Shown: positions 20,634 to 50,369 of the stretch, in pieces | How positions within the stretch are numbered: position 1 is the stretch's first letter | Layout: every line of letters begins with the position of its first letter | Made by a program: the position numbers and the translations under genes | Notes under the pieces: model-generated | The model's input: the letters and a program-made list of their open reading frames with translations, nothing else | Told to the model about the DNA's origin: nothing | Databases searched by the model: none | Assembly (NCBI RefSeq): GCF_000243115.2 | Contig: NZ_CP007035.1 | Span: 3,658,001-3,722,000, forward strand | DNA length: 64,000 nucleotides | Reading direction: 5' to 3' | Origin: Niabella soli DSM 19437 | GTDB lineage: Bacteria; Bacteroidota; Bacteroidia; Chitinophagales; Chitinophagaceae

Positions 20634-20880
20634 CTGTTAAGTTTTAAAAAAGGGCAGCAAAGATGCGCATTTTTTACCGATTTTACGCTTGTTCTCCGGG
20701 TATTGACTCGCAAACATTCTAGATTCTGAAACAAGTTCAGAACGACAACGTGTTCTCAACGGGCTTTTTGGTCAGCCCTCACCCACAAATAAAACAGCTA
20801 TTTTATTGATATGTGTTTGAACACTAATGCGCCGCCGGCAATTCGGGTTTATTCCATTTAAGACACCTACGATGGCCAAT

Positions 20881-20899
20881 TCATTCGTGCATTAGTGGC
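20881..20899 (+). repeat. Dispersed ATTCGTG...AGTGGC intergenic repeat, copy 2
   Basis: TCATTCGTGCATTAGTGGC. It matches both flanks of the mobile element at 49359-49603 once the element and one target copy are removed, so it models the empty site. Confidence 0.6.
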
Positions 20900-20947
20900 T
20901 TTTGCAATTGCGTTAAAAACGCTGCCATTGAACCCTCTAAAAAATAT

Positions 20948-36160: not shown

Positions 36161-36246
36161 GTAAGTATATTTTCTTAAAGATACACCTGATGCGCCAACA
36201 AGGGAACGTATGACAAATTTATCTTTTAAGCTCTGGCAGGAGCGGC

Positions 36247-36377
36247 GTGTTTATAGAAAATGTATAATGAAGGGATTGGGCTTCATAGAAGCCCCGTGTT
36301 TACGCGGTCCCGCTGAGGCGGGAGAGCCGATGCGCATCACTACGAGGATACTATAAACACAAGGCTCCGGAGGAGCC
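36247..36377. repeat. Hairpin-dense intergenic element with short terminal inverted repeats
   Basis: GTGTTTATAG at 36247-36256 and CTATAAACAC at 36351-36360 are exact inverted copies. Between them are GGGCTTC-ATA-GAAGCCC (36278-36294) and CCCGC-TGAG-GCGGG (36309-36322); just outside is GGCTCC-GGA-GGAGCC (36363-36377). The style, several short stems with 3-4 nt loops, is like the mobile element at 49359. I see no target duplication. Confidence 0.6.
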
Positions 36378-39075: not shown

Positions 39076-39095
39076 CAGGGCAAACGCATCTAAAT
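39076..39095. repeat. Solo end of the 49359-type mobile element
   Basis: CAGGGCAAACGCATCTAAAT is identical to the first 20 bp of the element at 49359-49603. No matching opposite end is found within several hundred bp, so this is a remnant or a decayed copy. It lies in the 327-bp mqnC-IscA intergenic space, which also holds CACTGAAACACTG-type simple repeats at about 39164-39190 and a -7 box. Confidence 0.7.
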
Positions 39096-39259
39096 GTTGT
39101 CAGGGAGCGTTTTTGTCGGGCTAACGAATAGCTTTCTGTGTTTCTGAGCTTCTGTGGCTAATTTTGGCCACTGAAACACTGAAAAACACTGAGAAAACGG
39201 AACAATATTCTACACATTCCGCGATTTCTGCGGGAAGCGCTAAAAGCGTATTTAAATGC

Positions 39260-46834: not shown

Positions 46835-47578
46835 TTATTTAAAGGCAATTGCTTTTTTTATAGTTTCTTTTTTGTTTCTGGATACCGGAATAGCCGCGCC
46901 GCCTGTTAGCAACAAACGGTCGCCTCCTTCCCGGATCCAGCTTTGAATATAAGCCCGGTTCACAATATAGGATTGATGACTGCGGAGAAAGCCGTGGTAT
47001 TGCAACAGCTCTTCATACTCAAAAATGGGTTTGGAAGACAAATGCTTTTGCCCGTTTGTAAGATGTATAAACGTGTAGTTATTGCTGGCTTCACAAAATA
47101 AAATGGCGGCCACATCTATAAACAATGTTTCTTTTTTTGAAGGCACTGCAATTTTAGGCAGGCTTTTGTTTTCCAGCAATTGCAAAAGATTCTCTAACCG
47201 TTCGTTTTGTTTTTTTGTTTCAATATGTGCCAGGGCTTTATCAACGGCTTGTATTAATTCATCTATATGAACCGGTTTTAACAAATAATCAATAGCTGAA
47301 AACCGGATCGCCTGTATCGCATATTGATCAAAGGCCGTTACAAAGATCACTTCAAAGGAGGGGCGGGTAAAGGTTTTTAAAAGATCAAGCCCCGTTTTAC
47401 CCGGCATTTGTATGTCGAGGAAAACAAGATCAGGATGGCTGTTCTTTATCAGGCGCACGCCCTCATCGGCATTGCCGGCGTGCCCAATAATGCTGATCTG
47501 TGGGCAGTAATTGGCAAGTAATAAAGAGAGATTCTCAATATTATTGGGTTCATCGTCTATGATAACAGCGGCCGGCAT
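46835..47578 (-). CDS. LytTR-family response regulator
   Basis: A 247-residue regulator. The receiver (1-120) has IDDEPNN, phospho-Asp in LVFLDIQMPGKTG, the Thr in VIFVTAF and the Lys in SAIDYLLKPVH. The C-terminal LytTR domain (from about 148) has TLFIDVAAILFCEASNNYTFIHL and FLRSHQSYIVNRAYIQ. It would bind direct repeats in target promoters. Its ATG overlaps the stop of the kinase gene by one base (TAATG), and GH130 starts 2 bp after its end. Confidence 0.92.
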   Translation of the reverse strand: MPAAVIIDDEPNNIENLSLLLANYCPQISIIGHAGNADEGVRLIKNSHPDLVFLDIQMPGKTGLDLLKTFTRPSFEVIFVTAFDQYAIQAIRFSAIDYLLKPVHIDELIQAVDKALAHIETKKQNERLENLLQLLENKSLPKIAVPSKKETLFIDVAAILFCEASNNYTFIHLTNGQKHLSSKPIFEYEELLQYHGFLRSHQSYIVNRAYIQSWIREGGDRLLLTGGAAIPVSRNKKETIKKAIAFK

Positions 47579-49194
47579 TATAACCAGTTTAAAAATAATA
47601 AAGAAAGGGTTGTACCTGTTGCATCGCTTTTGATCGATAGTTGAATAAGCGGATTGCCATAGCCTTTATTTAAAATAGCAATCCTTTCTTTCGACAGCCC
47701 CAGGCCATAACCTTCCCGGTATGAAGATACGTTAAAACCCGTGCCGTTATCTTGTATTCGGATCTGCATGTTTTCTTTTTCGCGAAGCACGCTGATCGTT
47801 AAAATTCCGTTGCTGCCGGATTTTGAAAAGACATGATGGATCGCGTTTTCTACAAAGGGCTGCAGCAGGAAGGGAGGGATTTGGGCGATAGAAGGCTGGA
47901 GGAGTGGGTCGATGGTCAAGTTATAAACAAATGCACAACGCAGTTGTTCCAGCTCTATATAGCCCTGCAGGTTTTTTAATTCTTTGTCCAGGGGAATCAG
48001 GTCCAGTTTGCTTTCCTGTAAGGTTTCCCTCAATAATGTACTAAAAGAAGACAGGTATTTGTTTGCATTTGGGATATCATTTTTATTAACAAGCCCTTGT
48101 ATGGAACTGAGGGCGTTAAATGTAAAATGCGGATTGAGCCGGGCATAAATCTGTTGCAGCCTTTCCTGTGTTTTCTCAAATTCCTCTTTTACTTTTTTGA
48201 TCCGCTGTTGTTGTTTGCGGTAGCGAAATATAAATAATAAAAGTGCAAACAGGAATATAATAAACGCAAAACAGGCAATCTTAAAGATTGCCGTTTGGTA
48301 CCATGCCGGGGTTATTGAAAAATGGAATTCCTTGATGCTTTGGGGTTGTCGCTTAAACCGGATGCGGATAAGATAGTCGCCAGGATCAAGATTTTTCAGC
48401 AGGATATGATTGTTATCATATTCATTCGGTCCCCAGTCCCGTATTATTTTTCCATTCGATTCCAGGCGGTATTCCAGGGCCTCTTTTTTATAAATTGACG
48501 CATCAATTTTTAGTAAAATGGAATTTTCGTTATAGGGTAATTTTAAAACCTTTTTTTGCCCATCGGGTATATTCGCATATTGACGATGCCAGCCGATCTC
48601 GCGGGGGCCATTCGCGAAAAGGTCTTTATTGTTTACAATTTTTGAAAACTCAAGCGGATTATTGGAGGTGTACAAAAGGCTGATTTCGGGCGTTTGCAAT
48701 TGCCAGTAAACTACCCAGGAGGAAATGATTTTTCCTTTATGGCTCCGGAGGTGCATAACAACGTAATTGCCCCAATTGGCGCTGTAACTGCCGGTAATTC
48801 CGCTACCCAACGGGATGCCTCCGATGGCTGTTTGTGTAAACTGATTGATGTGGGTCCACGGAGTGATGACGGTTTTATTATTCAGCAAAACGCTATATTC
48901 AAAATCATCAGTATTGTTTTTATTAACCTGCGGGATCAAAAAATAAATTCCTGCCGTGTCATAAACAAAACTTAAAGGCGTCAGATCGGTAAGGGAGCTA
49001 TCTATAGCAATTTTATATTGTGGGTTCCAATGGGCAATGCCGACAATCTTAGTTGTGCAATTGCTATAGGTTCCGTTGTAGGGAACGGCAACACCCAGTG
49101 TGGGATAGAACGATGTGGAATAATTTTTCCAGTCAATTTGTGAGTGGGCTTTGGTAACTGCCAGTAGCAAACAAAAAAGGATTAATTTTTTCAT
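47578..49194 (-). CDS. LytS-type sensor histidine kinase
   Basis: A 538-residue kinase. There is a signal peptide (LILFCLLLAVTKAHS), a periplasmic sensor region of about 285 residues whose last part (LLKNLDPGDYLIRIRFK) resembles the Y_Y_Y domain of hybrid sensors, one membrane helix (about 308-328, FKIACFAFIIFLFALLLFIF), a short coiled coil and a His kinase domain with the phospho-His in RLNPHFTFNALSSIQG and the N-box LLQPFVENAIHH, then GLGLSKERI. It would sense a periplasmic signal, possibly a glycan given the GH130 in the operon. It is the first gene of the operon. Confidence 0.9.
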   Translation of the reverse strand: MKKLILFCLLLAVTKAHSQIDWKNYSTSFYPTLGVAVPYNGTYSNCTTKIVGIAHWNPQYKIAIDSSLTDLTPLSFVYDTAGIYFLIPQVNKNNTDDFEYSVLLNNKTVITPWTHINQFTQTAIGGIPLGSGITGSYSANWGNYVVMHLRSHKGKIISSWVVYWQLQTPEISLLYTSNNPLEFSKIVNNKDLFANGPREIGWHRQYANIPDGQKKVLKLPYNENSILLKIDASIYKKEALEYRLESNGKIIRDWGPNEYDNNHILLKNLDPGDYLIRIRFKRQPQSIKEFHFSITPAWYQTAIFKIACFAFIIFLFALLLFIFRYRKQQQRIKKVKEEFEKTQERLQQIYARLNPHFTFNALSSIQGLVNKNDIPNANKYLSSFSTLLRETLQESKLDLIPLDKELKNLQGYIELEQLRCAFVYNLTIDPLLQPSIAQIPPFLLQPFVENAIHHVFSKSGSNGILTISVLREKENMQIRIQDNGTGFNVSSYREGYGLGLSKERIAILNKGYGNPLIQLSIKSDATGTTLSLLFLNWL

Positions 49195-49348: not shown

Positions 49349-49358
49349 CATTCGTGCA
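49349..49358. repeat. Left target site duplication of the MITE-like element
   Basis: CATTCGTGCA, directly abutting the left terminal repeat and identical to 49604-49613. Confidence 0.85.
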
Positions 49359-49603
49359 CAGGGCAAACGCATCTAAATTAAAAAAGAGAGAAACAGAGGC
49401 GTAGCCTCGAAAAATATTTCAAAAACGGGTTTCAACCCGTTTGAGGAGCAGACAAAATAGATGGAGAACCGTAGGTTCGGCCCATAATGTACCGTGCCGA
49501 TGGCACTCCACTCACTGCATCGCACATAAAGCCGCGCTAAAGCACGGCTTTATGTAACCCAAACGAGCCGAAGGCTCTAAAAAATTTAGATGCGTTTGCC
49601 CTG
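49359..49603. mobile_element. MITE-like element, 245 bp, 21-bp perfect TIRs
   Basis: The ends 49359-49379 and 49583-49603 are perfect 21-bp inverted repeats starting CAGGGCAAACGCATCTAAA. A 10-bp direct repeat, CATTCGTGCA, abuts both ends. Inside are six hairpins: GAGGC-GTA-GCCTC (49396-49408), AAACGGGTT-TC-AACCCGTTT (49423-49442), GAACC-GTA-GGTTC (49466-49478), TGCC-GAT-GGCA (49495-49505), an 11-bp stem with ACATAAAGCCG (49524-49555) and GAGCC-GAA-GGCTC (49565-49577). There is no open frame of note, so it needs a transposase supplied elsewhere. It lies between a kinase gene and lspA and a related empty target is at 20881-20899. The transposase family is unknown; a 10-bp duplication fits several IS groups. 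Confidence 0.85.
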
Positions 49604-49613
49604 CATTCGTGCA
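49604..49613. repeat. Right target site duplication of the MITE-like element
   Basis: CATTCGTGCA, directly after the right terminal repeat. The following TTGGTGGCC continues the target repeat seen at 20881-20899. Confidence 0.85.
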
Positions 49614-49644
49614 TTGGTGGCCGTTTTCCTTTTTCTTTTACCCG

Positions 49645-49652
49645 TATCTTTG
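49645..49652 (+). promoter_or_regulatory. -7 box of lspA promoter
   Basis: TATCTTTG, a full match, 21 nt before the ATG at 49674 and 31 bp after the mobile element and its target duplication, so the insertion stopped short of the promoter core. Confidence 0.55.
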
Positions 49653-49673
49653 CCCCCGCATAAAAAATAACGG

Positions 49674-50369
49674 ATGAAAGCTGGGAAATTAAGTACGTCG
49701 GTCATTGTAATCCTCCTCATTCTGGTGGTAGACCAGGTGGTGAAGATCTATATAAAAACACACTATCCGGTTGGAGAAGTAACCCGCCTGTTTGGCATGG
49801 ACTGGGCACGCATTCATTTTATTGAAAACTCAGGCATGGCCTGGGGGTGGAAATTTGGTAATGAAGCCGGCAAAGTGGCGCTGACGCTGTTTCGCCTGGC
49901 AGCGGTGATCTTTGGCTCCTTTTTGCTGGTAAAATTTGCAAAAGAAAAATACACCCGCGGCTTTATGATCTGCGTAGCGCTGATCTATGCCGGGGCCCTG
50001 GGAAACCTGATCGACAGTATGTTTTACGGGATGCTCTTCGACAAAGGACTGCATTTTGATCCGGCCTTCGGCGATTATATTGGTTATGAAGGTATTGCGA
50101 AGTTTGGCGGACATGGCTACGCTTCGTTTTTACACGGCAGCGTAGTGGACATGCTTTATTTTCCCATGGTTAAAACCCATTATCCCTCCTGGTTTCCGGG
50201 GGTGGGCGGCGAGCCGTTTGAATTTTTTGCCCCGATCTTTAATATAGCCGATGCCGCCATCTCCACCGGGGTGATCGCCCTGCTGGTATTTCAAAAGAGA
50301 TTTTATAAGAAAGTTGAGGAACCGGCTGCAATTACAAAAACCGAAATCAGGGAAGAACAGGTAAGCTAA
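49674..50369 (+). CDS. lspA: Lipoprotein signal peptidase II
   Basis: A 231-residue inner-membrane aspartyl protease. Helix 1 has VVDQVVKIYI, and the catalytic aspartates are in ALIYAGALGNLIDSM and FNIADAAISTGVIALLVF. IHFIENSGMAWGW is the conserved NxG region. Compared with about 165 residues in E. coli it has an insert of about 45 residues between the two Asp motifs (VKTHYPSWFPGVGGEPFEFF and the part before it), which is usual in Bacteroidota, and a polar tail of about 20 residues. It cleaves prolipoproteins, of which this window encodes several. The MITE-like element lies 70 bp upstream. Confidence 0.93.
   Translation: MKAGKLSTSVIVILLILVVDQVVKIYIKTHYPVGEVTRLFGMDWARIHFIENSGMAWGWKFGNEAGKVALTLFRLAAVIFGSFLLVKFAKEKYTRGFMICVALIYAGALGNLIDSMFYGMLFDKGLHFDPAFGDYIGYEGIAKFGGHGYASFLHGSVVDMLYFPMVKTHYPSWFPGVGGEPFEFFAPIFNIADAAISTGVIALLVFQKRFYKKVEEPAAITKTEIREEQVS

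Follow-up and report, generated by a model that had tools for sequence, protein, structure and literature searches.

Introduction

ISAs1 transposases are DDE enzymes that make double-strand cuts, and Y1 (IS200-like) transposases are single-strand HUH enzymes. Nezha and other cyanobacterial MITEs are short and non-autonomous, and MITE interiors are usually taken for remnants of a deleted transposase gene or for DNA of unknown origin. A MITE of Porphyromonas gingivalis, BrickBuilt, is described as having a minisatellite inside (PMC4596501; name from PMC10969869). Y1 elements use subterminal secondary structures, and the 2018 classification of TnpA-Y1 proteins gives Y---Q--HH as the signature of subclass 1.2, found mostly in Cyanobacteria and Bacteroidetes (PMC6006769). 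In the available portion of that classification, REPs are named for subclasses 2.2, 2.4, 2.5, 2.7 and 2.8 and atypical structures for subclass 2.6 and class 3; the same portion neither describes REPs for subclass 1.2 nor states that this subclass was searched.

Here we describe a 245-bp element upstream of lspA in Niabella soli DSM 19437, located in an analyzed stretch of 64,000 nucleotides (hereafter, the window). With ISAs1 insertion sequences and MITEs it shares the end CAGGGCAAACGCATC..., 10-bp duplications, and full-length elements with the same end that encode a DDE transposase of the NF033564 type; unlike the insertion sequences, it lacks a transposase gene and instead encloses a hairpin cassette resembling that of a different mobile system. 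REP/BIMEs and the REPtrons of TnpA-REP (RAYT) resemble it in their dispersed hairpin arrays and in the matching arrays that surround Y1 genes, but the units here have three hairpins, and most of the associated proteins have Y---Q--HH, the signature of subclass 1.2, with no REPs reported for that subclass in the available part of PMC6006769. Like Nezha and its cyanobacterial counterparts, the element is short and non-autonomous. Like BrickBuilt it is a Bacteroidota MITE enclosing another type of repeat, although the cargo of BrickBuilt is, in the part of PMC4596501 available, a minisatellite rather than a Y1-type hairpin array. A literature search covering titles and abstract openings, with most subscription journals outside its scope, returned no precedent for Y1-type REP cassettes inside ISAs1 MITEs. 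We consider it very probable that the element is a chimeric miniature transposon, in which ISAs1 ends enclose a Y1-type cassette of REP-like hairpins that was multiplied by ISAs1 transposition.

Results

The element spans window positions 49359-49603, within a 479-bp divergent intergenic region between a histidine kinase gene on its left (47578-49194, minus strand; open reading frame plus domain match) and lspA, encoding signal peptidase II (49674-50369, plus strand; Pfam PF01252), whose start codon lies 70 bp downstream of the element end. Its arms, the left terminal inverted repeat CAGGGCAAACGCATCTAAATT (49359-49379, plus strand) and the right one (49583-49603, minus strand), are 21 nt long and 100% complementary, and both are of the ISAs1 type, the left end being common to ISAs1 elements. 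Outside them lie two identical (10/10) copies of the direct repeat CATTCGTGCA, at 49349-49358 and 49604-49613, which have the length of target-site duplication that recurs in this family of ends. No open reading frame of at least 120 amino acids was present within the 245 bp. The perfect 21-bp inverted repeats, 10-bp duplication, six hairpins and lack of a gene reported in the initial annotation were all borne out on re-measurement.

When the flanks are joined with a single copy of the duplication, they read TTCATTCGTGCATTGGTGGCC, which differs from 20880-20899 by 1 mismatch in 20. The resemblance to 20880-20900 claimed in the initial annotation is thus literally correct, but the shared part is a short motif only, and 20880 is a second copy of that motif rather than an empty copy of the element's locus. 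This motif, TTCGTGNATTNGTGGC, recurs at window positions 20880-20899 and 49602-49621 and at L174:2961-2976, and served as the element's target.

Allowing up to 3 mismatches, the 21-mer end occurs at 10 places in the N. soli genome (4,697,343 bases, one contig), compared with none for the reversed control. Three of the ten (3167991, 3697076 and 901744) are solo ends, which we take as relics; the one at 3697076 corresponds to window positions 39076-39096, an unpaired ISAs1-type end that differs at 1 of its 21 positions. The exact 19-mer of the end was found in at least 118 stretches of public genomes, including those of Bacteroidota, cyanobacteria, Thiomicrospira and Chloroflexi, and among the matches listed 35 of these 118 contained pairs of ends less than 3 kb apart, with up to 4 mismatches allowed in the second end. 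Two of the pairs bound insertion sequences, of 1173 bp in L035 and 1189 bp in L047. Each has a perfect match to the 18-nt end at both of its termini and encodes an ISAs1 transposase; against the model for such transposases, NF033564 (cut-off 70), the proteins (375 and 378 amino acids) reach 391-393 bits, and they contain PF13808 and PF01609. A transposase gene bounded by the same ends, which the initial annotation had proposed to look for, was therefore found, and the family that it had left unnamed is ISAs1. The IS4 family, our first identification from the features of the end and duplication, was dropped since the full elements with the same ends carry ISAs1 transposases. In L030 and L031 we saw single ISAs1-like ends and no complete element within these stretches.

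Duplications of 10 bp are a recurring property of these ends. In 33 end pairs among the matches listed (no more than 1300 bp long, both flanks present), the flanking 10-mers were identical in 13 and had at most one mismatch in 17, compared with 0 of 6367 at that level when flanks of different elements were paired. At 9 bp, one exact duplication and two with one mismatch were seen among the 33 pairs, and at 7, 8, 11 or 12 bp there were none. Because the same ends bound ISAs1 insertion sequences and 10-bp duplications recur, we classify the element, on sequence grounds, as a putative non-autonomous ISAs1-family element (MITE), with ends and target duplication that correspond to those of ISAs1-family insertion sequences. 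Such ends and duplication make it most likely that the element was mobilized in trans by an ISAs1 (DDE) transposase.

The initial annotation had staked its reading on the existence of further copies, and the genome of N. soli was found to hold six copies of the element at 73-100% identity. Flanking duplications are recognizable in four of the six: the copy in the window (10/10), the copy at 1652832 (9/10), and those at 1138997 (9/10) and 1038436 (10/10), the duplication being displaced by 2 nt from the end in the last two. The copy at 511191 showed no flanking duplication on inspection, and the copy at 4087009 has lost its ends. The six copies, the presence of the same ends on full ISAs1 elements and the excess of 10-bp duplications (17/33 versus 0/6367) all support the earlier view that the MITE arose at this site by real transposition.

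Element DNA was matched in 7 of 294 family genomes. PF01609, PF13808 and NF033564 had no matches in the N. soli genome; NF033564 had matches in 7 of the 294 family genomes, exceeding its cut-off in four. One of the genomes, G189, belongs to the same genus and has six open ISAs1 genes with equal scores. Both ends were recognized around four of these (CAGGGCAGACGCATTAAAAA, 1235 bp), all with 10-bp duplications, and around the other two only a right end with three mismatches was recognized. Since no ISAs1 gene is detectable in N. soli and such genes occur in a genome of the same genus, the N. soli elements probably remain as stranded leftovers of earlier ISAs1 activity.

The 203-nt interior of the element contains six short-loop hairpins with perfect stems of at least 5 bp, compared with a mean of 0.36 and a maximum of 3 in 200 composition shuffles; this count takes the fifth hairpin as TAAAGCACGGCTTTA, in a register differing from that of the 32-nt hairpin 5 given below. 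The hairpins, all annotated on the plus strand, are laid out as two "small-large-small" triplets. In triplet 1, the small hairpins 1 (GAGGCGTAGCCTC, 49396-49408) and 3 (GAACCGTAGGTTC, 49466-49478) surround the large hairpin 2 (AAACGGGTTTCAACCCGTTT, 49423-49442), and in triplet 2 the small hairpins 4 (GTGCCGATGGCAC, 49494-49506) and 6 (GAGCCGAAGGCTC, 49565-49577) surround the large hairpin 5 (ACATAAAGCCGCGCTAAAGCACGGCTTTATGT, 49524-49555). Hairpins 1, 2 and 6 were supported by folding, alignment and hairpin count, and hairpin 5 by folding and alignment; hairpins 3 and 4 were supported by alignment and count and differ from the minimum-energy pairing. Relative to dinucleotide shuffles, the interior folds with z-scores of -6.17 as RNA and -5.70 as DNA (0/200 shuffles as good in each), and the z-scores of the six N. 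soli copies are uneven (-6.2, -4.0, -2.5, -2.5, -2.0 and -0.9). In an alignment of these six copies with two from the sister species G237, on which the six hairpins were imposed, 94.0% of the cells were paired (90.1% in shuffles, 0/500), covariation was 0.162 (0.099 in shuffles, 0/500), and 6 pairs were altered on both sides (3.5 in shuffles, 37/500), which is modest evidence that the hairpins are kept across copies. Rfam returned four sub-threshold matches to the element and none at the gathering score.

A covariance model of the interior (R1) produced 53 match rows in the N. soli genome at E-values up to 1. Six of these are the elements themselves (150-219 bits) and three are their reverse strands. 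The other 44 rows score 15.9-59.4 bits, some being two strands of one place; at no more than 59.4 bits versus 150-219, they are best read as relatives of the cassette rather than copies of it. These 44 rows represent dispersed palindrome arrays in many copies, as is characteristic of REP-type repeats. A six-hairpin cassette without transposon ends was not found in the N. soli genome, and only one of 22 other R1 places that we inspected lay within 600 bp of an ISAs1-like end, which had 4 mismatches. Many of the 22 are copies of one dispersed repeat, which has the same small-large-small triplets and the terminal sequence ...GATACCGGTTTATTAT. The stretches L171-L193 (e.g., G000:C1:3982838-3982996) show a dispersed hairpin-triplet family with near-identical copies ending in ...AATAAAATTGATACCGGTTTATTAT, which may be a separate Y1-type non-autonomous element. 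Under a stricter filter, R1 matched 17 of 294 family genomes.

Some of these arrays lie beside Y1 transposase genes. The N. soli genome has ten matches to Y1_Tnp, and five R1 rows fall within 1 kb of one of them, at 4492673; in the same R1 search, six other Y1 loci had nothing below E 0.7. At the N. soli Y1 locus L162, the same 13 nt as in hairpin 1 occur upstream of the Y1 gene, and 22-nt matches to hairpin 4 adjoin it. R1 was also searched in the genomes of 11 relatives, and Y1_Tnp in those 11 and N. soli. R1 rows lay no more than 1 kb from a Y1 match in G119 (2 of 2), G243 (5 of 5) and G279 (at least 2 of 19), and the nearest rows in G237 and G286, among the matches listed, were 1.7-1.8 kb from one. 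In six of the 11 (G269, G208, G149, G230, G178 and G277), the matches listed included no R1 match within 1 kb of a Y1 match, G178 having no Y1 match at all. In a direct R1 scan of 42 Y1 loci, L154, L281, L282, L288 and L302 matched within 1 kb, with best scores per locus of 44.6-65.2 bits; at these five of the 42, a Y1 gene is flanked by the same palindromes, the arrangement that defines REPtrons. Two further loci (L299 and L304) have R1 matches about 1.8 kb away.

The five flanked loci encode closely related enzymes. We built a tree from 34 proteins encoded at 33 of the 42 loci, excluding L160, L161, L275, L291, L296, L300, L301, L303 and L304 for being broken, short or divergent. In it, the five R1-flanked proteins, which come from three genera, form one clade with support of 100/99 (0/500 shuffles). 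One locus outside this clade, L276, has a weak R1 match beside its Y1 gene (18.3 bits, E 0.0016) and was not labelled as flanked; if it is counted, the flank label needs two changes on the tree. Repeats on both sides of Y1 genes extend beyond the clade: at least three 12-mers are shared between the two flanks at 16 of 29 Y1 loci, compared with 7 of 500 random window places. The flank-sharing loci are L152, L154 and L157 in N. soli and 13 among L276-L306 in relatives, most of them with Y---Q--HH; L302, from the flanked clade, has no 12-mers common to its two flanks. Overall, a looser pattern was detected in 36 Y1 proteins, of which 33 have Y---Q--HH; the protein of L154 has Y---Q--RH. Our assignment to subclass 1.2 is by the Y---Q--HH motif, which defines the subclass together with its C-terminal domain. 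Six N. soli Y1 proteins scored no more than 29.9 bits with the TnpA-REP model NF047646 (cut-off 80), while five of the six passed the IS200/IS605 model NF033573 (cut-off 55) and the sixth, encoded by a fragment of a disrupted gene, reached 54.8. By the NCBI models, the N. soli Y1 proteins would thus be IS200/IS605 transposases and not REP transposases.

By these matches, the interior is homologous to dispersed arrays, and such arrays are found close on either side of the Y1 (IS200-like) transposase genes of a single clade. It bears no evident resemblance to an ISAs1 gene with a deletion, and the initial annotation's suggestion that it may serve as RNA or as a protein binding site is better stated otherwise: it is most aptly described as a putative cassette of REP-like hairpins of the Y1-transposase type.

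The same cassette occurs between other ends within the genus. In the sister species G237, which has 103 R1 rows reaching up to 176 bits among the matches listed, 14 of 27 inspected loci had a pair of GAAGCTGTTTAAAAA-type ends (no more than 4 mismatches) spaced 281-352 bp apart, and none of the 27 had an ISAs1-type end at that level. The trinucleotide TNA is present on both sides in 11 of the 14, its middle base agreeing in six of these 11. In this species (L219-L224 and L308-L327), the cassette has multiplied within elements that measure about 350 bp and have GAAGCTGTTTAAAAA ends and mostly TNA flanks, features that would fit an IS5-like group with a 3-bp TNA target. One cassette thus appears between two kinds of ends within a single genus.

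Conversely, some other ISAs1-type ends enclose other hairpins of Y1 loci. We compared 31 interiors (the window's and those of 30 short end pairs) with the ten N. soli Y1 loci by BLAST; the 30 came from 40 end pairs, 10 being omitted from both folding and matching as long pairs or second pairings of one place. Four of the 31 real interiors matched, compared with one of 31 reversed controls (at a Y1 locus), and the four represent three cases, L104 and L108 being a pair of copies within a single species. That species is Niabella drilacis, whose ISAs1 MITE pair matches repeats in the N. soli Y1 loci L159, L158 and L157 (E down to 2e-9), with 33 nt at 91-94% for the L159 repeat and weaker matches for L157 and L158. 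A hairpin repeat of the type common to the N. drilacis MITE and L157/L158 is also present at window positions 36226-36259, away from Y1 genes. In Mucilaginibacter, the element L078:3175-3426 has ends with 4 mismatches each and a duplication of 8 of 10, and its interior has matches among the repeats that lie to either side of the L152 Y1 gene (E 3e-6; near-identities of 19-22 nt).

Alternatively, the element could be a plain ISAs1 MITE that was internally deleted and whose hairpins evolved in place, as a payload surviving transcription or aiding transposition, in which case the likeness to Y1 arrays would be convergence. Strong folding is indeed common among such elements: z-scores of -3 or below were found in 15 of the 30 other short end pairs, and folded elements from Thiomicrospira (L107) and Prevotellaceae (L055) had no match to the N. 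soli Y1 loci. Folding is not universal, however; cyanobacterial elements of 125-127 bp, which may correspond to Nezha, share the same 19-bp end and, among the matches listed, several have 10-bp duplications, but the interiors inspected fold little (z -2.4 to -0.2). Because hairpin counting misses some folded ISAs1 MITEs (the count is 0 in L038 and L055), we did not take folding alone as proof of Y1 origin. What convergence would leave unexplained is likeness in sequence beyond folding, namely the R1 scores of 44.6-65.2 bits close to one Y1 clade, the 33-nt match of the N. drilacis interior to the L159 repeat (91-94%, with weaker matches at L157 and L158), the 19-22-nt near-identities on both sides of the L152 Y1 gene in Mucilaginibacter, and the same cassette between unrelated ends in G237. 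An in-place origin of the hairpins is already weakened by these data, and we regard it as improbable.

The lspA site was compared across the genus, LspA being found in 16 of 17 genomes (N. soli included). In the nearest relative, G303 (LspA 92% identical), homology restarts exactly at the right end of the element (window 49583-49700, 93%), and the left flank aligns as well, over 68 bp (82%). The right end in G303 is degenerate, with 7 of 21 positions mismatched, and inside it is a weak reverse match to the left end of the window element (57 bp, 72%, E 0.009). This relative keeps a degenerate and apparently inverted trace of the element at that boundary before lspA, at approximately 1378-1430 of L240, which would reflect either inversion by recombination between the ends or two insertions into the same motif. 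In G277, the motif TATTCGTGCATTTGTGGC is uninterrupted 217 bp upstream of lspA, within intergenic DNA that aligns only in short pieces, and we interpret this site as the empty form. The contrast of occupied and empty sites before lspA envisaged in the initial annotation therefore holds for the uninterrupted motif in G277, but not for G303 with its remnant at the same boundary. The other 13 relatives have neither the motif nor the end pair in the 800 bp before lspA, and three of them have one end-like place each, mismatched at 6 or 7 of the 21 positions.

A functional RNA or regulatory leader of lspA, with the inverted repeats around it incidental, would be consistent with the strong fold of the cassette, its location 70 bp before lspA and the retention of paired columns (94.0 versus 90.1% in shuffles, 0/500). 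We nevertheless judge this very unlikely, as the six copies occupy different loci, no Rfam family was matched at the gathering score, and 13 of the 15 genus relatives lack the end pair and motif in the 800 bp before lspA. Even less credible is mobilization of the whole unit by a Y1 enzyme as an IS200/IS605-like, PATE-like element with secondary inverted ends and 10-bp repeats, because, despite hairpins resembling those beside a Y1 gene and the subterminal structures that Y1 elements use, IS200/IS605 elements have to our knowledge neither target duplications nor terminal inverted repeats, whereas the ends here are those of ISAs1 insertion sequences and the duplication is an exact 10 bp that recurs in the end family.

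Discussion

The reading that we prefer, a chimera of ISAs1 ends and a Y1-type hairpin cassette, makes this element an ordinary ISAs1 MITE in its movement and an unusual one in its cargo. An ancestral hairpin cassette would have ended up between two ISAs1 ends and would then have been multiplied by ISAs1 transposition. Capture could have run in either direction: REP arrays may have entered an internally deleted ISAs1, or ISAs1 ends may have closed around an array. Since the cassette lies between other ends in G237 and other hairpins lie in other ISAs1 MITEs, the pairing of a hairpin cassette with foreign transposon ends probably arose more than once. Hairpin repeats of a Y1 system thus seem to be carried repeatedly as the payload of transposons that use another chemistry. 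Such hairpins could be a tolerated or favored payload, being short, folding and possibly insulating against read-through; they may in some way help the element, and could conceivably affect lspA.

A broader hypothesis can be advanced tentatively, with more doubt than confidence: Bacteroidota TnpA-Y1 proteins of the little-studied subclass 1.2 may maintain their own dispersed multi-hairpin REP-type arrays, which insertion sequences that make double-strand cuts, ISAs1 and a TNA-target family, would have repeatedly adopted as their only payload. One repeat family would then owe its spread to two unrelated transposition chemistries, and its hairpins would be kept since they help movement or tolerance.

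For this MITE, the interior has an identifiable origin elsewhere, in a type of hairpin array with its own clade of single-strand transposases. The finding points to REP-type arrays for TnpA-Y1 subclass 1.2, with none described for it in the available part of PMC6006769. Furthermore, it suggests a specific mechanism that could carry REP-type repeats beyond the reach of their cognate enzyme.
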